From: Actinomycetota bacterium
GTDB taxonomy: Bacteria > Actinomycetota > Actinomycetes > Propionibacteriales > Propionibacteriaceae
Direction of reading: 5' to 3'
Length of the DNA: 41,079 bases
Assembly: GCA_020161795.1 (NCBI GenBank)
Contig: JAIUOR010000054.1
Span: 1-41,079 of the forward strand
A program made the translations under genes and the position numbers. This document shows, one piece after another, positions 4,910 to 34,154 of this stretch. Below the pieces are notes generated by a model. That model did no database searches. It saw only the letters and a program-made list of their open reading frames with translations, and had not been told where the DNA came from. Within the stretch, counting starts at the first letter, position 1; each line of letters begins with the position of its first letter.

Positions 4910-6022
4910 ATGAAGAAGAGATCCCTGCTAGCGGGCGCGGTCATCGCCGCGGCCGCTCTCCTGCTGAGCGCCTGCAGCCCCGGTGGCAGCAGCACCCCGG
5001 GAGAGAGCACCCAGCCCCCGGCCGGCGAAGCCGGCCTCAACATCAAGTACGTCATCAACGGCACCCTGGGTGACAAGTCGTTCATCGACTCCGCCTACCG
5101 CGGGCTCTCCGAGGCCGCCGACACGCTGGGCTACACCGTCAAGACGGTGGAGCTCGGCTACGACGAGAGCACCTGGGAATCCGGTCTGGCCGATGCGGCC
5201 GCGGGCGACGACTACGACATCCTGGTCGCCGGCTCGTACAGCATGTCCGACTACATCGGCCGAGTGGCGCCGCAGTACCCCGACAAGAAGTTCTGGGTCT
5301 ACGACGCCCCGCCGGACTACTCCGGCAAGGTCGGCTGCTCGAACGCCTGTGAGAACGTCTACTCGGTGACCTTCAAGCAGAACGAGGGCTCCTACCTCGT
5401 CGGCTACCTGGTCCAGCTCCAGCTGGCTGCCAGCGCGCTGCCCGGCGCCGAGGGCCTCACCAAGGCCGGCATCGTCGGTGGACAGGACATCCCGGTGATC
5501 AACGACTTCATCGCCGGGTTCAAGAACGGCTTCGCCGACGCCGGAGGCAATGCCGCCGATGTCATCGTGCAGTACGTCGGTGGTGACAAGGCATTCAACG
5601 ACCCCGCGCGCGGCAAGGAGATCGCCGCGGCGATGTTCGAGCAGGGCGCCGGTGTCGTCTGGGGCGTCGCGGGCGGTTCCGGAGCCGGTGTCATGGAGGC
5701 GGCCGCGGGTGCCGGCCGCTACTCGGTCGGCGTCGACTCCGACCAGTACCAGACGATCGAGGACGAGACGCTGCGCGACACCATCCTCACCTCGATGGTG
5801 AAGAACGTGGACGCGGCGCTGCTGCGCGCGGCGCAGCTCCACAAGGAGGGCACCCTGGTCTACGGCGCCGCCGAGAACGTGGGCATCGCCGAGAACGGCG
5901 TGGCGCTCGCGACGGACAATGCGAACTTCGAGAAGCTCGTGTCCGCCGACATCGCCGCGAAGGTGGAAGCTGCGGCGGCGGAGGTCAAGTCCGGCGCTGT
6001 GAAGGTCGATACCGCGTTCTGA
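4910..6022 (+). CDS. BMP-family ABC transporter substrate-binding lipoprotein
   Basis: A 370-residue binding lipoprotein of the Med/BmpA/PnrA family, whose characterised members bind purine nucleosides. The signal peptide MKKRSLLAGAV... ends in lipobox LSAC. Family motifs are GDKSFIDSAYRG, the YDIL/AGSYS strand, VWGVAGGSGAGV, VGVDSDQ and LTSMVKNVDAAL. The ribosome site AAGGAGAG precedes the ATG. The gene is the second of an operon COG0212, binding protein, ATPase, permease, permease. The ligand is probably a nucleoside, given adenosine deaminase nearby, but the first operon gene leaves open a thiamin-related compound. The binding-pocket residues were not modelled. Confidence 0.92.
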   Translation: MKKRSLLAGAVIAAAALLLSACSPGGSSTPGESTQPPAGEAGLNIKYVINGTLGDKSFIDSAYRGLSEAADTLGYTVKTVELGYDESTWESGLADAAAGDDYDILVAGSYSMSDYIGRVAPQYPDKKFWVYDAPPDYSGKVGCSNACENVYSVTFKQNEGSYLVGYLVQLQLAASALPGAEGLTKAGIVGGQDIPVINDFIAGFKNGFADAGGNAADVIVQYVGGDKAFNDPARGKEIAAAMFEQGAGVVWGVAGGSGAGVMEAAAGAGRYSVGVDSDQYQTIEDETLRDTILTSMVKNVDAALLRAAQLHKEGTLVYGAAENVGIAENGVALATDNANFEKLVSADIAAKVEAAAAEVKSGAVKVDTAF

Positions 6023-6023
6023 C

Positions 6024-7610
6024 GTGGCTCGATTCGCTCAGACCGGTTCGGCGGCGCCCAGCGCGGGTGCCGCCGAACCGGCGACTCCAGCGGTGCGCTT
6101 CGAGCGCATCCGCAAGGAGTACCCCAACGGGGTTGTCGCCTGTGAGTCGATCTCCTTCGAGATCCAGCCCGGCACCGTCCACGCCATCATCGGGGAGAAC
6201 GGCGCAGGCAAGTCCACCTTGATGAAGGTGCTCTACGGCATGGAGCAGCCCAGCTCCGGCCAGATCCTCTTCGACGGCCAAGCCGTCACGATTCCCTCCC
6301 CGCAGTCGGCCATCGACCACGGCATCGGGATGGTCCACCAGGCCTTCATGACCGTCGGCACCTTCACGATCACCCAGAACATCACCCTCGGTGCCGAGCC
6401 CCAGCGACGGGGCTTCGTCGACAGCCGGCGGGCGGTCGCCGAGGTGGACGAACTCGCGCGGCGCTTCCAGCTCGACATCGACCCGCTCGCCCGCGCCCAG
6501 GACGTCTCGGTCGGGATGTTGCAGCGCGCCGAGATTCTGAAGGCCCTCTACCGAGGGGCCCGCATCCTCATCCTCGACGAGCCCACCGCCGTGCTGACGC
6601 CGCAGGAGACCATCGAGCTGTTCCGCGCGCTGCGCGGCTTCGCGGCCTCCGGCCGCACCGTCATCTTCATCTCGCACAAACTCCGCGAGGTGCTGGAGAT
6701 CGCCGACGAGATCACCGTGATGCGCGGCGGGCACCTGGTGGGACAGACCACTCCCGAGGCCACCGACGAGGTGGCGCTCGCCGGCCTCATGGTGGGGCGA
6801 TCCATCGCCATCGCCGATCGGCACCCGGCCGCCGCCGCGGGCGAGGTCGCCCTCGAGGTGGCCGGGCTGAGCTGCCTCAACGACCTGGAACGCCCCGCCT
6901 GCACCGAGGTTGACCTGGAGGTCCGGGCCGGCGAGATCGTCGGCATCGTGGGCGTCGAGGGCAACGGCCAGACCGAGCTCGTCGAGGTCATCGCCGGCCT
7001 GCGCGCGCCCACCGGCGGAGAGATCCACCTGCACGGCGACGTCATCACCCAGGCCAGCGTCCGGTCCCGCCGGGCAGCCGGGCTGCACCACATCCCCGAA
7101 GACCGTATGAAGAACGGGGTCGCGCTGCCGGAGTCGATCGAGGACAACCTGATAGTCGACCGCTACACCGGTTCGACCGTCCGGCGTCACGGGCTGCTCA
7201 GCCCGAAACGCATCGGGCGGTTCGCCGAGGAGCTCATCTCGCGATTCGGCGTTCGCGCGGCCGACAGCAAGGTGCCGGCCGGCTCACTCTCCGGCGGCAA
7301 CATTCAGAAGCTGATCGTCGCGCGCGAACTCGGCGATCAGCCGCTGGTGCTGCTCGCCTCGCAACCCACGCGGGGTGTCGACATCGGGGCGATGGAGTTC
7401 ATCTACGCCGAGCTGCGCGAGGCACGGGACGCCGGCTGCGCGGTGCTGCTGGTCTCGGCCGACCTCGGCGAGGCGCTGACGCTTTCTGATCGCATCGCGG
7501 TCATCCGCAACGGGCGGGTCGTGGCCCGCTTCGACGACGTCGCCGCGGTGACGGAGGAGGACCTCGGACGGCACATGCTCGGTGCCGCCGAGAGCAAGGA
7601 GCCGGCATGA
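6024..7610 (+). CDS. BMP/nucleoside-type ABC importer ATP-binding protein (two fused NBDs)
   Basis: A 528-residue cytoplasmic ATPase with two nucleotide-binding domains in one chain, as in sugar (RbsA) and nucleoside (NupO/YufO) importers. Domain 1 is complete: Walker A GENGAGKST, signature region VSVGMLQR, Walker B ILILDEPTA and switch ISHKL. Domain 2 has a degenerate Walker A (GVEGNGQTE) and a degenerate Walker B (LVLLASQPTRGVD, lacking the DE pair) but an intact LSGGNIQK signature. One competent and one structural ATP site is usual in this family. The GTG start follows the binding-protein stop by one base, and the stop overlaps the next ATG (ATGA). Confidence 0.94.
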   Translation: MARFAQTGSAAPSAGAAEPATPAVRFERIRKEYPNGVVACESISFEIQPGTVHAIIGENGAGKSTLMKVLYGMEQPSSGQILFDGQAVTIPSPQSAIDHGIGMVHQAFMTVGTFTITQNITLGAEPQRRGFVDSRRAVAEVDELARRFQLDIDPLARAQDVSVGMLQRAEILKALYRGARILILDEPTAVLTPQETIELFRALRGFAASGRTVIFISHKLREVLEIADEITVMRGGHLVGQTTPEATDEVALAGLMVGRSIAIADRHPAAAAGEVALEVAGLSCLNDLERPACTEVDLEVRAGEIVGIVGVEGNGQTELVEVIAGLRAPTGGEIHLHGDVITQASVRSRRAAGLHHIPEDRMKNGVALPESIEDNLIVDRYTGSTVRRHGLLSPKRIGRFAEELISRFGVRAADSKVPAGSLSGGNIQKLIVARELGDQPLVLLASQPTRGVDIGAMEFIYAELREARDAGCAVLLVSADLGEALTLSDRIAVIRNGRVVARFDDVAAVTEEDLGRHMLGAAESKEPA

Positions 7611-8758
7611 CCGCCACCGAATCCGCTGCTGTCGCGCCGCCGGTGCCCGGCGACGATCGCGAGGCCGCCCGCGCCCGGGTGCACCGGCAGCGGCGCAGCG
7701 ACCTGGTCGCCGCCTTCGTGGCGATGATCGTCACGATCGTGATCGCCCTGGCGATCGGCTTCGTCATCCTGCTCATCGTCGGGAAGGACGCCGTCGCGGC
7801 CTACGAATGGCTGCTCACCGGCCCGTTCTCCCGCACCACCCGGATCGGGCGGGTCCTGATCGACACCACCACGCTGACGATCCTCGGCCTCTCGGTCGCG
7901 ATCCCGTTCCGCGCCGGGCTGATGAGCCTGGGCGCCGAGGGCCAGCTCTACATGGGAGCGCTGACCGCCGCGGTCGTCGGCCTGGCCTTCCCGCTCCCGC
8001 CCGGGCTCGGCATCCTCGTCCCCGCGCTGGCGGCGATGGTCGCCGGGGCGATCGTGGGCTTCGTCCCCGGGTGGATGAAGGCGCAGTTCGGCGCGAACGA
8101 ACTGGTGTCGAGCCTCATGCTCAACACCGTCCTGGTGCGCATCTACGGCTACATCCTCACCGAATACCTCACCGAGGAAGGCTCCACCAGCGTCGCCTCG
8201 GCGTACCTGCCGAACGAGTCGCTCATCCCCACCTTCACCCAGCTGACCGGCGTCAGCTTCGACCAGGCCAACCTGGCCGTCGTGCTCGTGCCGATCCTGG
8301 CGGTCGCCGTCTGGCTGATCCTGCAGCGCACGAGCCTGGGCTACGAGGTACGGATGACCGGCAGCAACCGGCTGTTCGCGGCCTACGGCGGCATCTCCTC
8401 GCGCAGGGTGATCATCCTGTCGTTCATCATCAGCGGTGCGATCGCGGGCATCGCGGGCGCCCACCTGGTGCAGGGCGTGAACGGCCGGGCGCTGCTCACC
8501 CTCTCGGTCGGCACCGGATTCACCGGCATCATGATCGCGATCCTCGCGCGGAACAACCCGATCGTGATCCCGTTCGCCGCCTTCTTCTACAGTTATCTCA
8601 AGATCGGTGGGGACGTCATGGAGCAGGAGCTCTCCGTCGGCACCGAGATCGTCAACGTGATCCTGGCGCTGATCGTGCTGCTCGTCACCTCCCAATTCGT
8701 GATGAGCCTGGTGAAACGCAGACGACTCTCCCGACTCGAGGCGAAGGGCCAGCCATGA
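7607..8758 (+). CDS. BMP/nucleoside-type ABC importer permease 1
   Basis: A 383-residue inner-membrane permease of the BPD_transp_2 (RbsC/NupP-like) family. A basic cytoplasmic N-terminus of about 40 residues is followed by about eight to ten hydrophobic segments. Characteristic strings are GAEGQLYMGAL, NELVSSLMLNTV and the coupling region RMTGSNRLFAAYGGIS, which would contact the ATPase. The GARNNP-like loop before the end (ILARNNPIVIPFAAF) is typical of the family. It is ATGA-coupled to both the ATPase upstream and permease 2 downstream. Confidence 0.93.
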   Translation: MTATESAAVAPPVPGDDREAARARVHRQRRSDLVAAFVAMIVTIVIALAIGFVILLIVGKDAVAAYEWLLTGPFSRTTRIGRVLIDTTTLTILGLSVAIPFRAGLMSLGAEGQLYMGALTAAVVGLAFPLPPGLGILVPALAAMVAGAIVGFVPGWMKAQFGANELVSSLMLNTVLVRIYGYILTEYLTEEGSTSVASAYLPNESLIPTFTQLTGVSFDQANLAVVLVPILAVAVWLILQRTSLGYEVRMTGSNRLFAAYGGISSRRVIILSFIISGAIAGIAGAHLVQGVNGRALLTLSVGTGFTGIMIAILARNNPIVIPFAAFFYSYLKIGGDVMEQELSVGTEIVNVILALIVLLVTSQFVMSLVKRRRLSRLEAKGQP

Positions 8759-9720
8759 TCTGGGACGCACTGTTCTCGACCCTGTTCCTCGCCGCCGTGC
8801 TGCGGGTGGCGACGCCGCTGCTGCTGGCCGCGATGGGCGGTCTCATCTCGGAGACGGCCGGCGTCCCCAACATCACGCTGGAGGGCTCGATGCTGAGCGG
8901 CGCCTGCGCGGGAGCGCTGGTCGGCGGCTTCACCGGCAACCCCTGGCTGGGACTGATCGCAGCGATCGTCGGCGGCGCGATCATCGGGATCCTGCTCGGC
9001 GTGCTGCACCTGGAGTTCGGCGCGGACCCGATCATCGTGGGCATCGGCCTCAATCTGCTCGTGGCCGGTTTCACCACCTTCATCGTGTTCTCGCTGCTCG
9101 GCGACAAGTCTGGAACCTCCAGCCTGGGACGCAACCTGCTACCGACCATCGAACCCGGGCCGCTGGCGGGCATTCCCTTCCTCGGTGACGTGCTGCTCGG
9201 CCAGCACATCCTCACCTACGTGGCCTTCCTGGTCTGGGCAGCGGTCGCGCTGTTGCTGGCGCGGGCCACCTTCGGGGTCCACCTCCGGGCGATCGGGCAG
9301 AACCCGCTCGCCGCGGCCACCGCCGGCATCAGCGTCAAGCGGCTGCAGTACGCGGCCGTGATCATCTGCGGCAGCCTGGCGGGAACGGCCGGCGCCTTCC
9401 TGTCGATGGGCTACGTGTCGAGCTTCATCCGCGACATGACGGCGGGCCGCGGCTTCATCGCCCTCGCCGCGATCTTCCTCGGCGGCATGCGGCCGCTGGG
9501 CGTCGGTTTCGCCGCGCTCGCCTTCGGCTTCTTCGAGGCGCTCTCGATCCGGCTGGGCAACCTCGACGTCCCCAGCCAGCTCGTCCAGACGATTCCCTAC
9601 ATCGCCACCCTCATCGGCCTGGGACTGTTCGCCTGGCGCGAGACGACCCGAAGACGTCGCGGATCCGGAGCCACCGGGCAGAGACGACGGCCGGTCACCC
9701 CGGGAGCCGACCCGGCCTGA
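8755..9720 (+). CDS. BMP/nucleoside-type ABC importer permease 2
   Basis: A 321-residue permease of the same BPD_transp_2 family and the partner of the upstream protein (NupQ-like). It has family strings GGLISETAGVPNITLEG, the coupling segment VHLRAIGQNPLAAATAGIS, and AIFLGGMRPLG near the end. The ATG overlaps the stop of permease 1. It ends with a short, very basic tail (RRRRGSGATGQRRRP). It is the last gene of the operon, and only nine bases separate it from the convergent LacI gene. Confidence 0.93.
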   Translation: MIWDALFSTLFLAAVLRVATPLLLAAMGGLISETAGVPNITLEGSMLSGACAGALVGGFTGNPWLGLIAAIVGGAIIGILLGVLHLEFGADPIIVGIGLNLLVAGFTTFIVFSLLGDKSGTSSLGRNLLPTIEPGPLAGIPFLGDVLLGQHILTYVAFLVWAAVALLLARATFGVHLRAIGQNPLAAATAGISVKRLQYAAVIICGSLAGTAGAFLSMGYVSSFIRDMTAGRGFIALAAIFLGGMRPLGVGFAALAFGFFEALSIRLGNLDVPSQLVQTIPYIATLIGLGLFAWRETTRRRRGSGATGQRRRPVTPGADPA

Positions 9721-12173: not shown

Positions 12174-12251
12174 CCTCCCCGATCCCCAAGGTGCCCGCGA
12201 TCGTTCACTGAGGCGTCAACTCCCGTTGCTCGGGTGGTGAGGCGGGCTGCC

Positions 12252-12257
12252 TAGCGT
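12252..12257 (+). promoter_or_regulatory. Putative -10 of the nonulosonate cluster
   Basis: TAGCGT fits TANNNT and ends six bases before the ATG at 12264, the leaderless spacing. A GGAG also lies close to the ATG, so a short leader is possible instead. Confidence 0.35.
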
Positions 12258-12263
12258 CGGAGC

Positions 12264-13544
12264 ATGACGTCCGAACGCCTCCCCCCGAGGGTCGCGGTAC
12301 TCGCCGACAGCGACAGTCGCTGGAAGTGGGGCATGCTCACAGCCGGCCTGCTGGCGCCCCCGGCGGATATCGACTCCTACCAACTGGATCGGCTGAATCC
12401 CCCCAGCCGACGCCAGCTCGCCGAGGCAGGAGTGGACATCGAGGCGCTGACGACGCTGCGGATGGGCGACCTCGCAGCGGTTCTCACCGAGCGTCCACCG
12501 GATGTCCTGATCCTCGCGCTGCCGGGCGGCGGCACCATCGCCGCCCGGCACGCGCTGGCCGCTCGCTGGTCTTCGGACCTGCGGCGGCCGCTGTTGGTCA
12601 CCGGTTACGTGGGCGTGGTCTACGAGAAGCTGGTCGAGGGAGCCCTGGCGCGCGCCGGCTCGGACATCGTGCTGGCCAACAGCGGCCACGACGCCGCCCG
12701 GTTCCGTCGGCTCTACCGCGACCTGGGTCTGGATCCCGACCCGGTCGTCGAGGCCGGGCTGCCGTTCCTGCGCGGCCCCGAGGCGCCGCGCGCGGGCCGC
12801 CGATTCACGGTCACCTTCGCCGGCCAGCCCGGCGTCCCCGCCGGCGAGGCCGACCGCACCTATCTGGTCGACCGGCTGATCCGGCATGCCTGGCTGCACC
12901 CGGAACGCGTGGTCAACATCAAGCTGCGCAGCATGCCCGGAGAACGGGTCACCCACGCCGAGCCCTACCCCTACCCGGCGATCCTGCGCCGGGCGCCCGG
13001 CCCGCTGCCGGAGAACATCCGGATCACGCTGGGCGACATGGGCGAGGCGCTGCGGGCCACCGATCTGCTGGTCACCGTCTCGTCCACCGCCGCCCTGGAG
13101 GCGATGAACGCCAGCGTCCCCACCGTCCTGCTGACCGACTTCGGGGTGCGCGAGCAACTCGGCAACGCCCATTTCGCCGGATCGGGGTGCCTGGCCAGCT
13201 TCGATGAAGTGGACGCGGGGGTCGCACCGCTGGTCGATCCGGACTGGGCGGCGGAGCACGGCGTCGATCCGCTCGGGCCGGAGCAGTTCGTGGCCCGGGT
13301 CTCGGCCCTGCTGGCAGCCGAGCCGCCACCGCTGCGGCCGTACTACACCATGGCGCGCAGCCCGGCCTATCTGAGCCGGTTGCTCGCCTCCTACGGGCTC
13401 GGCCCGGACGGCCGCCCGGCGACCGCCTGGAACGGATCCACCGTCCGGCTGGCTCGCCGGGCGCTCCGCTCCACCGCCCGCACCCTCTACCGGACCGGCA
13501 CCCACGTCGTGGCGCCGGCACTACGAAAGCTGGCCTCGCTGTGA
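12264..13544 (+). CDS. DUF6716-like putative glycosyltransferase
   Basis: A 426-residue cytoplasmic protein that looks like a two-domain GT-B glycosyltransferase. The N-terminal Rossmann-like half starts RVAVLADSDSRWKWG. A middle segment reads GYVGVVYEKLVEGALAR and LANSGHD. The C-terminal half has a nucleotide-sugar-type pattern (DLLVTVSSTAALEAM, then PTVLLTDFGVREQLGNAHF). It is the first gene of a four-gene run whose later members make a CMP-activated nonulosonic acid, and its stop overlaps the next GTG by four bases. A role in transferring or extending a nonulosonate-containing chain is inferred. The donor and acceptor are unknown and no catalytic residue is assigned. Confidence 0.75.
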   Translation: MTSERLPPRVAVLADSDSRWKWGMLTAGLLAPPADIDSYQLDRLNPPSRRQLAEAGVDIEALTTLRMGDLAAVLTERPPDVLILALPGGGTIAARHALAARWSSDLRRPLLVTGYVGVVYEKLVEGALARAGSDIVLANSGHDAARFRRLYRDLGLDPDPVVEAGLPFLRGPEAPRAGRRFTVTFAGQPGVPAGEADRTYLVDRLIRHAWLHPERVVNIKLRSMPGERVTHAEPYPYPAILRRAPGPLPENIRITLGDMGEALRATDLLVTVSSTAALEAMNASVPTVLLTDFGVREQLGNAHFAGSGCLASFDEVDAGVAPLVDPDWAAEHGVDPLGPEQFVARVSALLAAEPPPLRPYYTMARSPAYLSRLLASYGLGPDGRPATAWNGSTVRLARRALRSTARTLYRTGTHVVAPALRKLASL

Positions 13545-14737
13545 CCCCCGATCCCCTGCCCAGCGATGTCCGCCCCGAGGTGGTGGCCGTGATCCCCGCC
13601 CGGGGCGGCTCCAAGGGTGTCCCGGGGAAGAACCTCGCCGCCGTGGGCGGGGTACCGCTGGTCGTCCGCGCCGTCAGGGCCTGTCTGGCCGCCACCCGGC
13701 TGACCGCCGTGGTGGTCTCGACCGACGACCAGTCGATCGCGGACGCCTCCCGGCAGGCGGGAGCAGTGGTGGTCACCCGGCCGCCGGAGATCTCCGGCGA
13801 CACAGCCGGCAGCGAGGAGGCGGTCGCCCACGCGCTGGACGTCCTCTACGGAAGTAGAGTCGATCGGGTGGACGTGGTGGTGCTCGTTCAATGCACCAGC
13901 CCCTTCACCACCCCCACCGAGATCGACGAGGTGGTGCAGGCCGTGCTGGCTGGCGCGGATTCCGCGTTCACCGCCGCCCGGTTCCATGGCTTCCTCTGGC
14001 GGCCCGAGCCCGACGGGGCAGTGGCGGTCAACCACCACCACAAACGCCGGGCCCGCCGCCAGGAGCGTCCGGTCGAACTGCTCGAGACCGGCGCTGCCTA
14101 CGCCATGCGCGGTGCCGGCTTCCTGGCCAAGCAGCGCCGGTTCTTCGGGACCATCCAGGCGGTGGAGACTCCCGCCGAGCGAGTGCTGGAGATCGACGAA
14201 CCCGGTGATCTGGAACGGGCCAGGATGCTCGCGCCGTCGCTGAGCAGCGGCTGGTCGACGCTCCCCGGCCGTCACGACGTGGACGCCGTGGTGCTCGACT
14301 TCGACGGCACCCAGACCGACGACCGGGTCTGGCTCTCCGCCGACGGCAGCGAGCAGGTGGCGGTGCACCGCGGCGACGGTATGGGCGTCGCCGCGCTGCG
14401 CCGCGCCGGGATCGAGGTTCTGATCCTCTCCACGGAGACCGACCCGGTGGTCTCGGCCCGGGCCGGGAAGCTGGGTGTCGAATGCCGGCAGGGCATCGCC
14501 GGCAAGGGCGCGGCGCTCACCGCCTGGTGCACCGAGAAGGGGATCGACCCCCGCCGCGTCCTCTACCTGGGCAACGACGTGAACGACCTGCCCGGCTTCG
14601 CCGAGGTCGGCTGGCCGGTGGCGGTGGCCTCGGCCCATCCTCCGGTGCGGGCAGCCGCCCGCGCCGTCACCACCGCGCCCGGCGGGCACGGTGCCGTCCG
14701 CGAGATCGCCTCGTGGATTCTCGGAAAGGATCTGTGA
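13541..14737 (+). CDS. neuA: Acylneuraminate (nonulosonate) cytidylyltransferase fused to HAD phosphatase
   Basis: A 398-residue bifunctional protein. Residues 1-235 are a CMP-nonulosonate synthetase: IPARGGSKGVPGKN (residues 18-31), VVVSTDD, and QCTSPFTTPTEID. Residues about 245-398 are a KDO8P-phosphatase-like HAD domain with all four catalytic motifs: DFDGT (Asp253, Asp255), LST (Ser297), Lys322 and GNDVND (344-349). The HAD half is therefore likely to be an active phosphatase, for example on a nonulosonate 9-phosphate. The GTG start overlaps the preceding stop (GTGA). The stop shares one base with the next ATG. Which nonulosonate is activated cannot be read from the sequence. Confidence 0.9.
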   Translation: MTPDPLPSDVRPEVVAVIPARGGSKGVPGKNLAAVGGVPLVVRAVRACLAATRLTAVVVSTDDQSIADASRQAGAVVVTRPPEISGDTAGSEEAVAHALDVLYGSRVDRVDVVVLVQCTSPFTTPTEIDEVVQAVLAGADSAFTAARFHGFLWRPEPDGAVAVNHHHKRRARRQERPVELLETGAAYAMRGAGFLAKQRRFFGTIQAVETPAERVLEIDEPGDLERARMLAPSLSSGWSTLPGRHDVDAVVLDFDGTQTDDRVWLSADGSEQVAVHRGDGMGVAALRRAGIEVLILSTETDPVVSARAGKLGVECRQGIAGKGAALTAWCTEKGIDPRRVLYLGNDVNDLPGFAEVGWPVAVASAHPPVRAAARAVTTAPGGHGAVREIASWILGKDL

Positions 14738-15663
14738 TGACCGCAGACTTCAACCCCCGCCTGCGCCGGCTCGGTGATCGCCTGGTCGGCCCGGGACAGC
14801 CGGTCTACCTGATCGGCGAGATCGGTATCAACCACAACGGCGAGTTGGCCAACGCGCTGGCGCTGATCGACGTCGCCGTCGAAGCCGGCCTGGACGCCGT
14901 GAAGTTCCAGAAGCGGACCCCCGAGGTCTGCACCCCCCGCGACCAGTGGGAGATCGAGCGGGACACCCCGTGGGGCCGGATGACCTACATCGACTACCGG
15001 CACCGGGTCGAGTTCGGCGTGGCGGAGTACCGCGCCATCGACGAGTACGCCCGTGCCAGGGGCATCGACTGGTTCGCCTCCCCCTGGGACGTCGAGAGTG
15101 TCGAGTTCCTGTCGCAGTTCGACCTGCCCGCCCACAAGGTCGCCTCGGCCAGCCTGACCGACGACCAACTGCTGCGGGCGCTGCGGGCGACCGGCCGCAC
15201 GATCGTCCTCTCCACCGGGATGTCGACGCCGGAGCAGATCCGGCACGCCGTCGAGGTGCTGGGCAGCCGCAACACCGTGCTGCTCCACGCCACCAGCACC
15301 TACCCGGCACCCCCGGAGGAACTCAACCTGCGGATGATCGACACCCTGATGGCCGAGTACCCGAATGTGCCGGTCGGCTACTCCGGCCACGAGACCGGGC
15401 TGCAGACCACTGTCGCGGCGGTGGCCCGCGGCGCGGTGATGGTCGAGCGCCACATCACGCTGGACCGGGCGATGTGGGGCTCGGATCAGGCGGCCTCGGT
15501 GGAGCCGGCCGGGCTGACCCGCCTGGTACGGGACATCCGGGTGATCGAGCAGTCGCTCGGGGACGGCGTCAAGCAGGTCTACCCCGGCGAGCTGGCGGCC
15601 ATGCGCAAGCTGCGCCGGGTGGCCGGAGTGGTGGCCGACGCGGCCCAGGGCGCGGTCGCGTGA
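14737..15663 (+). CDS. neuB: NeuB-family nonulosonate synthase lacking the SAF domain
   Basis: A 308-residue TIM-barrel synthase that condenses phosphoenolpyruvate with a hexose or hexosamine. Motifs are IGEIGINHNG (residues 26-35), KFQKRTPEV, FASPWD, STGM, HATSTYP, GYSGHE (214-219, metal-binding His218) and ERHITLDR. Standard NeuB proteins are about 340-350 residues with a C-terminal antifreeze-like (SAF) domain. Here the chain stops right after the barrel, with no SAF sequence. In Neisseria NeuB an SAF-domain arginine contacts the N-acetyl group of ManNAc. Its absence fits a substrate without that group, such as mannose-6-phosphate, which would make KDN-9-phosphate. GGAAAGGA precedes the ATG. 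Confidence 0.88.
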   Translation: MTADFNPRLRRLGDRLVGPGQPVYLIGEIGINHNGELANALALIDVAVEAGLDAVKFQKRTPEVCTPRDQWEIERDTPWGRMTYIDYRHRVEFGVAEYRAIDEYARARGIDWFASPWDVESVEFLSQFDLPAHKVASASLTDDQLLRALRATGRTIVLSTGMSTPEQIRHAVEVLGSRNTVLLHATSTYPAPPEELNLRMIDTLMAEYPNVPVGYSGHETGLQTTVAAVARGAVMVERHITLDRAMWGSDQAASVEPAGLTRLVRDIRVIEQSLGDGVKQVYPGELAAMRKLRRVAGVVADAAQGAVA

Positions 15664-16679
15664 CCACTCTCGCCCTGGTCGAGAGCCCGGTCCAGCTGCT
15701 GCACGTCATCGAGTGGTGCCATGCGACCGGCTCAGCCGATCGGACCAGCGTCTCCGTCCTGGCGCCGCGCGACGCCACCAGCCGCCGGCAGCTGCGGACG
15801 ATGCTGGGCTACGCCGGCGAGGAGGGGATCGGCACCCGGTGGCACGACCCGCGCCAGGGCGCCGGCGGCCTGCTCCGAACGATCGCGTCCCTGCGTCCCT
15901 CGATCGCGGCGGCCGACCGGCTGGTGGTGGGGGATCCGTTCTCGGGTCTGCTGCAGCTGCTGCTGCCGGCCTATCGCGGCCGCGGGCTGGTGGTCGTGGA
16001 CGACGGCACCGCGACCATGGAGTTCGCCTCGCGGGTGATCGACGGCAGGCCACTGGCTCGCTGGGACGCCCCGCCCGGGCTGGTGGCGCGGTTGCGCCGT
16101 CCGGTGGCGGCGCGGGCCCGCCGGATCCTGACCCCCGCGCCGGGCGCCCCGGTGACGCTGTTCACCGTGATGCCGGCGAACCGGGCGGCGGGCCTGGCGA
16201 TCCACCCGAACCGGTACGACTGGCTCAGGCGGCGGTTCGGCCGTCCCCAGGTGCTGCCGGGCACCGACATCATCGGTACCTCACTGGTGGAATCGGGAGT
16301 GGTGGACGCCGCCGCCTACCTGGACCAGATGGCCGCCCTGGCCACCGGCTCGGCTGGACGGTACTACGCCCATCGCCGCGAGGACGACGACAAGCTGCGC
16401 CGGATCGCGGCGCGCACCGGGCTGCAGGTGGTGCGGCCCGACGTCCCGCTCGAGATCGAGTTGCGCCGCGGGCCGGTCGCCGAACGGGTGATCGGGTTCC
16501 CCTCGTCGGTCGGCTACACGCTCCCGGTGGTGCTGGCCTCGGTCGGCACCACGGTGCGGCTGATCACGGTGAAACCGTCCTGGCTGCAACCCGGCATCGC
16601 CGCCGGGGCGCAGGAGTTCCTCACCACGATCGTGGCGAATCAGGTCAGCGCGGCACGAATGCCGGCAGCCCGCCGTTGA
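15660..16679 (+). CDS. Polysialyltransferase-like glycosyltransferase
   Basis: A 339-residue protein starting with LALVESPVQLLHVIEW, the opening pattern of bacterial alpha-2,8-polysialyltransferase-type enzymes. It has counterparts of their three signature sites: an acidic-acidic-Gly site DDGTA (114-118), a histidine site YYAHRRE with His238 (HR rather than the usual HP), and a Ser-Ser site FPSSVGYTL (Ser282, Ser283). It would use the CMP-sugar made by the two preceding gene products. The GTG start overlaps the neuB stop (GTGA). Its last 35 bases overlap the 3' end of the convergent small membrane gene. Linkage and acceptor are unknown. Assignment to the fold family is firmer than assignment to polymer formation. 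Confidence 0.75.
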   Translation: MTTLALVESPVQLLHVIEWCHATGSADRTSVSVLAPRDATSRRQLRTMLGYAGEEGIGTRWHDPRQGAGGLLRTIASLRPSIAAADRLVVGDPFSGLLQLLLPAYRGRGLVVVDDGTATMEFASRVIDGRPLARWDAPPGLVARLRRPVAARARRILTPAPGAPVTLFTVMPANRAAGLAIHPNRYDWLRRRFGRPQVLPGTDIIGTSLVESGVVDAAAYLDQMAALATGSAGRYYAHRREDDDKLRRIAARTGLQVVRPDVPLEIELRRGPVAERVIGFPSSVGYTLPVVLASVGTTVRLITVKPSWLQPGIAAGAQEFLTTIVANQVSAARMPAARR

Positions 16680-16953
16680 AGACGAGGTTGTAGCCCAGGC
16701 CGTGGGCGACGATGTAGCTGAGCCCCAGCAGCACCACCAGCACCACCAGTGCGAAGACCGCGATGCCGATCACCCGGCCCACCGGGTGCGGCGGCGGCAG
16801 GGTGCCTTCGTCGTGGTTGGTGGCCTCTCCGCCGGTTCCCCAGGCCATCGCCCGCACTCCGAAGGAGAACAGGGCGGGCAGCCCGGCGCCCAGCACCACG
16901 CCGATCAGGAGAATCCGCCACGCCGCATCCAGGGCGGCCACGATCTGGTTCAC
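16645..16953 (-). CDS. Small membrane protein coupled to Pit phosphate transporter
   Basis: A 102-residue protein with two hydrophobic helices, at residues about 13-38 and 60-86, joined by a hydrophilic loop (GGEATNHDEGTLPPPH). The GTG start overlaps the pit stop (GTGA), so it is translated together with the phosphate transporter. A small membrane gene next to pit recurs in actinobacteria (Rv0544c beside pitA in M. tuberculosis is a similar arrangement). It could be an accessory subunit of the transporter, but no function is known. Its 3' end overlaps the polysialyltransferase-like gene by 35 bases on the other strand. Confidence 0.85.
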   Translation of the reverse strand: MNQIVAALDAAWRILLIGVVLGAGLPALFSFGVRAMAWGTGGEATNHDEGTLPPPHPVGRVIGIAVFALVVLVVLLGLSYIVAHGLGYNLVFNGGLPAFVPR

Positions 16954-18200: not shown

Positions 18201-18253
18201 ATGGTAGAGCCGATTGCCCGATCCGGAAAACGAACGATGAACAACAGGCTAAA
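18201..18253 (-). promoter_or_regulatory. PHO-box-like array and promoter of pit
   Basis: Reading the minus strand, three units spaced exactly 11 bases lie upstream of pit: TTTAGCC (18253-18247), GTTCATC (18242-18236) and GTTTTCC (18231-18225). The actinobacterial PhoP direct-repeat unit is GTTCACC with an 11-base period. The units match at 4, 6 and 5 of 7 positions. TACCAT (18206-18201) fits a -10 and puts the transcription start at about 18194, the GTG itself. The array would then cover the -35 zone, the usual place for an activator. Confidence 0.55.
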
Positions 18254-33204: not shown

Positions 33205-33720
33205 GTGGGTCTGCCGAAGAGACACCTCGGAGTCGACGAGGTCGAGGTGCTGCACATGCGCACCCATGGCAAGGCGCTGGTGGTGCCGACGCTGGTGCTG
33301 CTGGTGACCGCGGTGCTGGTCGGCGTGGCGGTGGCCGCGTCGCCGCCGGAATGGCAGCCTTGGGCCAACTGGACCCTGTTCGGGTTGGGCGGGGTGGTGG
33401 TACTCGGCTGGACGGTGCTGCCGTACCTGCGCTGGCTCACCACCACCTACACGCTCACCAACCGCCGCATCGTCACCCGCCGGGGCATCATCAACCGGAC
33501 CGGTCACGACCTGCCGTTGGGCCGGATCAACAACGTCGCCTACGAGCGCGGGCTGGTGGACCGGATGCTCGGCTGCGGCACCCTGCAACTCACCACGGCG
33601 GCCGAGGCGCCGCTGTACCTCCACGACATCCCGGACATCGAGCGGGTGCACGTGCTGATGACCGAACTGCTCTTCGGCACCGCTGAGCGGTCCGTCCGGT
33701 TGCCGGACACGGACGAGTGA
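33205..33720 (+). CDS. PH-domain (bPH2) membrane protein
   Basis: A 171-residue protein. Homologues begin with an M-LP--LL pattern, which places the start at GTG 33205 (VGLPKRHLGVDEVEVLHMRTHGKAL) rather than ATG 33187. Two membrane helices follow (residues about 29-49 and 59-80). A bacterial PH-like domain comes next: TTYTLTNRRIVTRRGIINRTGHDLPLGRINNVAYERGLVDRMLGCGTLQL. It corresponds in position to Rv3278c, beside birA. Function is unknown. The stop overlaps the GtrA start (GTGA). Confidence 0.88.
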   Translation: MGLPKRHLGVDEVEVLHMRTHGKALVVPTLVLLVTAVLVGVAVAASPPEWQPWANWTLFGLGGVVVLGWTVLPYLRWLTTTYTLTNRRIVTRRGIINRTGHDLPLGRINNVAYERGLVDRMLGCGTLQLTTAAEAPLYLHDIPDIERVHVLMTELLFGTAERSVRLPDTDE

Positions 33721-34154
33721 CCCGTCGGGCCCCGCTCCCACTGGGCACCCAACTGCTGCGGTTCGTGGCCACCGGTGGGTTGTCGGCGATCGTCGACTAC
33801 GGGTTGTTGCTGGCCTTGACCATGGCCGGTCTGGATCCGCGCCTGGCCAAGGTGTTCTCCTTCGTCGCGGGTACGACCACCGCCTACCTGATCAATCGCC
33901 GCTGGACCTTCCAGGCCGGGCCGAGCAGGCGGCGCTTCGCTGCTGTCGTGCTCCTGTACGCGATCACCTTCGTGATCAACGTCGGGCTGTACGCGCTGGT
34001 CTTCGGATGGTTGCGGACGCGGACCGGGCTGCAGCCGGGCGATGGCGATCCGGACACCGCCCTGCTCCTCGCCACCACGATCGCTTTCGTGATCGCCCAG
34101 GGCGTCGCCACCACCGTCAACTTCGTGATGCAACGCGCCGTCATCTTCCGCTGA
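33717..34154 (+). CDS. GtrA-family membrane protein
   Basis: A 145-residue protein with four membrane helices. The GtrA pattern is clear: LLRFVATGGLSAIVDYGLLLAL, then FVAGTTTAYLINRRWTF between helices 2 and 3. GtrA proteins are thought to flip or assist polyprenyl-phosphate-linked sugars in cell-surface polysaccharide assembly. The GTG start overlaps the PH-domain gene stop. Rv3277 is the matching gene in the M. tuberculosis locus. A link to the UbiA or nonulosonate genes of this window is possible but unproven. Confidence 0.9.
   Translation: MTRRAPLPLGTQLLRFVATGGLSAIVDYGLLLALTMAGLDPRLAKVFSFVAGTTTAYLINRRWTFQAGPSRRRFAAVVLLYAITFVINVGLYALVFGWLRTRTGLQPGDGDPDTALLLATTIAFVIAQGVATTVNFVMQRAVIFR

Follow-up and report, generated by a model that had tools for sequence, protein, structure and literature searches.

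What does a run of four tightly packed genes for nonulosonic acid synthesis and transfer make in an actinobacterium of the family Propionibacteriaceae, and is such a system known from elsewhere? The run occupies positions 12264–16679 on the forward strand of a 41,079-nt contig (the window) from a genome of 3.47 Mb (95.6% complete, 3.8% contamination) in which its NeuB gene is present once. It encodes a DUF6716 protein, a NeuA-HAD fusion, a NeuB-family synthase and a fourth protein with a predicted polysialyltransferase fold. The original prediction, which took the run for a module making a nonulosonate and building a surface glycan, is partly supported; it missed that the module is already known from Streptomyces, the run being a compact relative of the SCO4873–SCO4882 cell-wall cluster, and that a PHO-box-like promoter element lies ahead of it. 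We consider it likely that this four-gene operon makes cytidine monophosphate (CMP)-activated ketodeoxynonulosonic acid (KDN or Kdn) and builds from it an acidic, phosphate-free surface polymer induced by PhoP, as the counterpart of SCO4879–SCO4882.

A conserved four-gene operon

The four open reading frames (ORFs) follow one another head to tail on the forward strand (12264–13544, 13541–14737, 14737–15663 and 15660–16679) and overlap by GTGA (4 bases), TGATG (1 base) and GTGA (4 bases), as had been claimed. A gene pick based on codon GC content returned the DUF6716 and NeuA-HAD ORFs and missed the other two, because the longest ORFs of both overlap their neighbours. The arrangement is not due to chance, since the gene order and the overlaps, mostly of 4 bases, recur in related genomes. 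With start codons chosen by projection, 4-base overlaps are found at 12/15 DUF6716/NeuA-HAD, 15/16 NeuA-HAD/NeuB and 13/17 NeuB/fourth-gene junctions of same-genus loci. The first three family assignments stand as originally made. The DUF6716 protein (426 aa, 12264–13544) is a putative glycosyltransferase of the NeuE family (PF20471, 330 bits, cut-off 27). The fusion (398 aa, 13541–14737) joins a CMP-nonulosonate synthetase to a KdsC-type nonulosonate-9-phosphate phosphatase (Pfam CTP_transf_3 and HAD), with motifs RGGSKGVPGKN at 21, DFDGTQTD at 253 and GNDVND at 344; its HAD half matches KdsC, and 3mmz is the closest PDB entry (6.2e−66). The synthase (308 aa, 14737–15663; PF03102, 266 bits) lacks the C-terminal SAF domain.

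The fourth protein (339 aa, 15660–16679) had been called polysialyltransferase-like. Sequence searches gave this no backing, with no match in Pfam, NCBIfam or PDB, but the predicted fold did: it is a GT-B fold like that of the Mannheimia polysialyltransferase MhPST (5wc6, GT38), with a comparable active-site layout, although the two proteins are only 11% identical. The D/E-D/E-G motif is represented by D114-D115-G116, invariant in 18/18 divergent homologues. Two observations speak against the GT38 assignment. The HP motif is replaced by HR, H238 being invariant and followed by R in 18/18 divergent homologues, and hhalign found no convincing match between the alignment of the fourth protein and NeuS or SCO4877-like proteins. 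The same held against DUF6716, and PF07388 was absent among the matches of 20 family members, listed up to an E of 1. The PDB profile search with the fourth protein gave two weak hits, both to RAD51 homologues (E 0.59 and 0.77), which were taken as chance. The predicted fold gives a putative function to a family that was unannotated.

Judging from sequence similarity, the DUF6716 family includes NeuE of E. coli, identified here by position. The gene that separates neuC from the polysialyltransferase gene in E. coli UTI89 carries the annotation DUF6716, the K1 protein at the NeuE position scores 56.6 bits with PF20471 (cut-off 27), and hhalign aligned the E. coli protein with the actinobacterial DUF6716 alignment with a probability of 97.3 (E 1.8e−11, 262 columns, 16% identity). 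The E. coli control genome has matches to both DUF6716 and PF07388. The PDB sequence-profile search returned nothing for DUF6716, and the word itself was not found in the literature searched.

The module is common, yet not universal, in the genus. Among 30 same-genus genomes, including the genome of the run, DUF6716 is present in 20 (once below cut-off) and the fourth protein in 18; in the whole set of 60 genomes, own genome again included, the numbers are 25 (24 over cut-off) and 20. Within the fetched stretches, some of which end early, the 18 same-genus loci with the fourth gene (L037–L054) have PiT (17/18), ADA (13/18) and MetG (9/18) as neighbours. A further set of named loci consists of the 80 that rank highest among 559 in their similarity to the fourth protein, and its co-occurrence counts lean towards complete clusters; its 16 Propionibacteriaceae loci appear to repeat contigs of the 60-genome set and are not independent of it. 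As in the window, all four genes are found in this order and on a single strand in 10/16 Propionibacteriaceae and 55/64 Streptomycetaceae named loci. The nine incomplete Streptomycetaceae loci are truncated by contig ends 1.1–2.8 kb ahead of the fourth gene. Among the incomplete Propionibacteriaceae loci, L119 is cut, L181 is split, and L124 lacks NeuA-HAD at the cluster, a copy being found in the same genome beside a second DUF6716 gene (L067). In three named loci (L174, L180, L189) NeuA-HAD appears in pieces in the translated match, through gaps or sequencing errors, as does NeuB of L174.

Homologues are not scattered in the two families, a pattern that would have refuted the original prediction; elsewhere in the phylum NeuB often occurs without the fourth gene. 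In a phylum-wide sample of 396 genomes, 39 have a NeuB profile match at 1e−50 and 12 the fourth protein at 1e−8, namely the own genome, nine genomes from a single genus (f6/g15), and two from family f11; two f6 genomes place inside Streptomyces in the NeuB tree. Counting against the favoured reading of the run, 8/20 phylum genomes with NeuB at 1e−100 lack the fourth protein at 1e−8, one of them (G090) having a 28% relative. In this genome, from another class of the phylum, DUF6716 (38%), NeuA-HAD, NeuB and the 28% relative lie close together (L201). In the tree of 48 NeuB sequences, the 19 Propionicimonas rows form one group (98/91), which is united with Streptomycetaceae and two further Propionibacteriaceae (94/90, slightly short of the mark of the tool), whereas NeuB of the same-order family f3 stands apart and clusters with f11 and L201 (99/89).

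Relation to the Streptomyces teichulosonic-acid cluster

Passages of PMC13011467 describe SCO4873–SCO4882 as the teichulosonic-acid cluster, under PhoP, and those of PMC8003754 its S. lividans equivalent; teichulosonic acid is presented as a phosphate-free polymer of galactose and Kdn in excerpts of PMC11481543 and PMC7831098. Streptomycetaceae loci have the same four-gene order as the run, with NeuB 76–82% and the fourth protein 44–50% identical, and a promoter element of the same type. The run is a real, conserved operon homologous to a known Streptomyces cluster. In S. anulatus (L188), a divergent glycosyltransferase family 2 (GT2) gene and a gene for a PF07388 protein precede the four genes, and an M20-type gene, a Bmp-type lipoprotein gene and a nucleoside-type ATP-binding cassette (ABC) transporter follow them (read by eye, the transporter also by match). 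This layout agrees with the annotation in the relevant part of PMC2267785, where SCO4877 is hypothetical, SCO4878 a glycosyltransferase, SCO4879 conserved hypothetical, SCO4880 a putative transferase and SCO4881 a polysaccharide biosynthesis protein. For Planobispora rosea, the corresponding section of PMC8269224 gives the counterpart of SCO4878 as GT2 and those of SCO4877, SCO4879 and SCO4882 as hypothetical.

From gene order and annotation, the run would be the counterpart, in or next to Propionicimonas, of SCO4879–SCO4882. Several points weigh against this placement. The sequences compared are those of Streptomycetaceae loci, not of S. coelicolor itself, and the same section of PMC8269224 labels the counterpart of SCO4880, where NeuA-HAD is expected, sialic acid synthase. 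The GT2 and PF07388 genes at the SCO4878 and SCO4877 positions occur in 55/64 and 54/64 Streptomycetaceae loci; in the own genome PF07388 gave no match, and the Streptomyces GT2 only generic ones (best E 1.6e−7 over 94 residues). A diverged PF07388 copy could escape the search, the S. anulatus copy scoring only 34 bits. Because PF07388 and the specific GT2 were not found, the polymer of the run cannot be assumed to be the Streptomyces polymer. Nor is the module as self-contained as originally proposed: the run encodes neither an exporter nor a wall ligase, the four LCP-type matches to wall ligases being located at other sites of the genome, and the cluster in Streptomyces includes two additional transferases. 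As had been noted, the run also has no flippase, NeuC, or legionaminic or pseudaminic acid gene.

The surroundings of the cluster differ between the two families in that ADA, PiT and MetG, the neighbours of the run, occur in 0/64 Streptomycetaceae loci. Both have a nucleoside ABC importer of the Bmp/PnrA type close to the cluster (4910–9720 in the window); a long match to its ATPase is found in 46/64 Streptomycetaceae and 9/16 Propionibacteriaceae named loci. Clusters of a second type in Propionicimonas (L045, L065, L067) carry relatives of both the GT2 and the PF07388 genes. In L045, from G014, the four-gene cluster is present as a diverged second copy, with another DUF6716 gene on the opposite strand and the GT2/PF07388-like genes nearby. 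At a locus of family f11 (L193), the place of the fourth gene beside NeuA-HAD and NeuB is taken by a gene of the polysialyltransferase family PF07388, scoring 70 bits, and by one related to the Streptomyces GT2. Convergent with the fourth gene of the run, with a 35-base overlap of their ends, is a gene for a 102-aa protein of no clear family (16645–16953, reverse strand), which stays beside PiT in all 17 same-genus loci where both were scored. The GtrA family has been linked to flipping of glycan precursors, and one such small membrane protein (PF04138) is encoded 17 kb from the cluster (33717–34154, forward strand).

A PHO-box-like promoter element

Upstream of the run, at 12203–12235 on the forward strand and −61 from the first start codon, lies GTTCACT followed by two weaker 11-base units. 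In S. coelicolor, as presented in part of PMC4415409, PHO boxes are built of an 11-base unit whose best-conserved motif is GTTCACC. Scored against this unit over three units (maximum 21) and about 260 bases, the element reaches 14/21, with 6, 4 and 4 of 7 positions matched. A score of at least 14 is found in the window and in 13/18 same-genus DUF6716 upstream regions, several of the same-genus genomes being near-copies of one another. In a 136-base version of the test, which left out L045 and L067 as having no box, a score of 14 is attained by 13/15 DUF6716 upstream regions, compared with 1.2% of 4000 stretches drawn at random from the same loci. It is rarely attained before other genes: NeuA-HAD 2/16, NeuB 0/18, the fourth gene 0/17, ADA 0/15, PiT 0/17, the small gene 0/17, MetG 0/9, ABC 0/8 and LacI 0/1. 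At loci without DUF6716, NeuA-HAD is the gene that follows the box (L037, L046), and in L047 the box lies 188 bases before a NeuA-HAD start that is itself uncertain.

An alignment of 17 upstream regions, 16 of them distinct and all selected from clusters of the window type, places the core of the box about 61 bases before the start codon and CCTA(G/A)C or a similar sequence at about −14; CTA occurs at −20 to −8 in 16/17. In the window, a putative −10 box, TAGCGT (12252–12257, forward strand), ends 6 bases before the start codon, and the operon mRNA is probably leaderless. The 55 Streptomycetaceae upstream regions have a mean best score of 14.1, compared with 11.6 (standard deviation 1.0) for 1100 random stretches; only 2/55 reach 16, and the opposite strand of the 55 regions scores equally well, which is compatible with a divergent gene pair.

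Phosphate control has its own difficulties. The consensus comes from Streptomyces, and the box of the window is weak by it, its second and third units matching only 4 of 7. Five same-genus regions fall below 14: L043 (13, in the same place), L065 (10), L067 (11) and both genes of L045 (11 and 12), all except the first in second-type clusters. Another PHO-box-like triple (18221–18253, reverse strand; 4, 6 and 5 of 7, score 15) lies −59 before the gene of the PiT phosphate transporter; as a sign of co-regulation it was rejected, being present before PiT in 0/17 relatives. By analogy with Streptomyces, PhoP perhaps controls the operon: phosphate starvation would switch it on, and the polymer would stand in for phosphate-rich wall polymers. 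Phosphate control of the polymer is what this predicts for the genus.

The sugar, the two transferases and known systems

The SAF domain of NeuB contacts the N-acetyl group of the sugar. It gave no match in NeuB of the window at E up to 10 and was found in 0/10 actinobacterial NeuB proteins scanned, the same library detecting it in E. coli NeuB; none of the NeuB stretches aligned in the 80 named loci, some cut or broken, extends past position 324 in window numbering. KDN is our best guess for the sugar because NeuB lacks this domain, the own genome has no NeuC-type UDP-N-acetylglucosamine 2-epimerase above cut-off (best 21.8 bits, cut-off 30.6) and two phosphomannose isomerase matches, the HAD half has the matches described above, and the route from mannose-6-phosphate through Kdn-9-phosphate and Kdn to CMP-Kdn is published (outlined in part of PMC6200933). 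The run itself provides a gene set for CMP-KDN, with synthase, 9-phosphate phosphatase and CMP synthetase. NeuB would condense mannose-6-phosphate with phosphoenolpyruvate, giving KDN-9-phosphate. In the fusion protein, the HAD half would dephosphorylate this product and the NeuA half would activate KDN with cytidine triphosphate. The GT38-fold enzyme would then transfer KDN from CMP-KDN onto a growing chain, and the NeuE-family protein may prime the chain or couple synthesis to export, the product presumably being attached to the wall. The operon is probably one for a KDN polymer.

The sugar might instead be N-acetylneuraminic acid (Neu5Ac) or another N-acylated nonulosonate made from N-acetylmannosamine (ManNAc)-6-phosphate, with HAD acting as Neu5Ac-9-phosphate phosphatase, as in animals. 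The top NCBIfam model for NeuB is indeed N-acetylneuraminate synthase (248 bits, below the cut-off of 400), the HAD half scores only 72.2 bits with the KDN-9-phosphate phosphatase model NF058599 (cut-off 180), and the own genome encodes the ManNAc-6-phosphate epimerase NanE (160.6 bits), which makes a Neu5Ac-9-phosphate route possible and weakens the absence of NeuC as support for KDN. NanE, however, sits among what look by eye like sugar-uptake and breakdown genes, and the missing SAF domain and NeuC-type epimerase, together with the link of the homologous Streptomyces cluster to Kdn (in passages of PMC13011467 and PMC11481543), make this alternative quite improbable.

A two-enzyme nonulosonate supply framed by two transferases, as originally recognized, is borne out by the NeuE-family and polysialyltransferase-fold proteins and by clustering conserved in two families. 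The transferases could also add nonulosonate residues singly, as a cap or decoration, to a glycan, lipid or protein that is already there, and not polymerize them: mono-sialyltransferases of GT80 and GT52 share motifs and donor-site layout with GT38, 1/20 homologues of the fourth protein matches PF07922 (GT52; E 0.0019), and the run lacks a polymer exporter; we regard this as unlikely. The proposal that one transferase primes and the other polymerizes is plausible in so far as DUF6716 includes NeuE, but the role of NeuE is disputed in print: it was proposed to prime polysialic acid with sialic acid (PMC5517516, in the part concerned), whereas the relevant text of PMC2408645 reports that the K1 polymer can be synthesized without it, that export requires it and that overproduced NeuS can replace it. 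DUF6716 might accordingly be no glycosyltransferase here but an accessory on the membrane side, stabilizing the transferase and linking it to export, a role that one laboratory has proposed for NeuE. Three Propionicimonas loci (L118, L122, L123), whose genomes carry only a diverged DUF6716 elsewhere, lack it at the cluster, which fits an accessory and counts against the favoured reading; Pfam labels the family a putative glycosyltransferase, and two loci from the same taxonomic order (L058, L059) have two and three DUF6716 genes beside NeuA-HAD and NeuB in genomes where a single-protein search found no fourth-gene homologue, so that DUF6716 may itself transfer there. An accessory role is a tentative possibility, less likely than not.

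If the operon does make a KDN polymer, the Streptomyces wall-polymer system extends to Propionibacteriaceae in a reduced four-gene form, and what the run adds to it is a predicted fold for the fourth protein, the link to NeuE, a PHO-box-like promoter conserved among relatives and a smaller gene set. The CMP-Kdn genes of Bacteroides thetaiotaomicron, which we take to be BT1713–BT1715, form a related system. As described in part of PMC6200933, that pathway likewise has a synthase, a 9-phosphatase and a CMP-sugar synthetase and no epimerase; in the run phosphatase and synthetase are fused, and the HAD half stays below the curated KDN-9-phosphate phosphatase cut-off. The neu operon of E. coli K1 (neuDBACES) also combines NeuA, NeuB, DUF6716 (NeuE) and a polysialyltransferase-fold protein. 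The run differs in having no neuC or neuD, a NeuB without SAF, NeuA fused to a HAD phosphatase instead of the GDSL-type domain of E. coli NeuA, a transferase with no detectable sequence relation to NeuS, no KpsMT and a Gram-positive host. It is tempting, though rather doubtful, to see in it a Gram-positive counterpart of K1 neu working on KDN, in which NeuE-type priming and one GT38-fold polymerase would yield a poly-KDN homopolymer replacing phosphate-containing wall polymers under phosphate starvation, a reading suggested by the lack of a second sugar transferase in the set. With DUF6716 tied to NeuE, whose part in polysialic-acid capsules is contested, a small actinobacterial operon offers these enzymes for testing outside the Kps machinery of K1.

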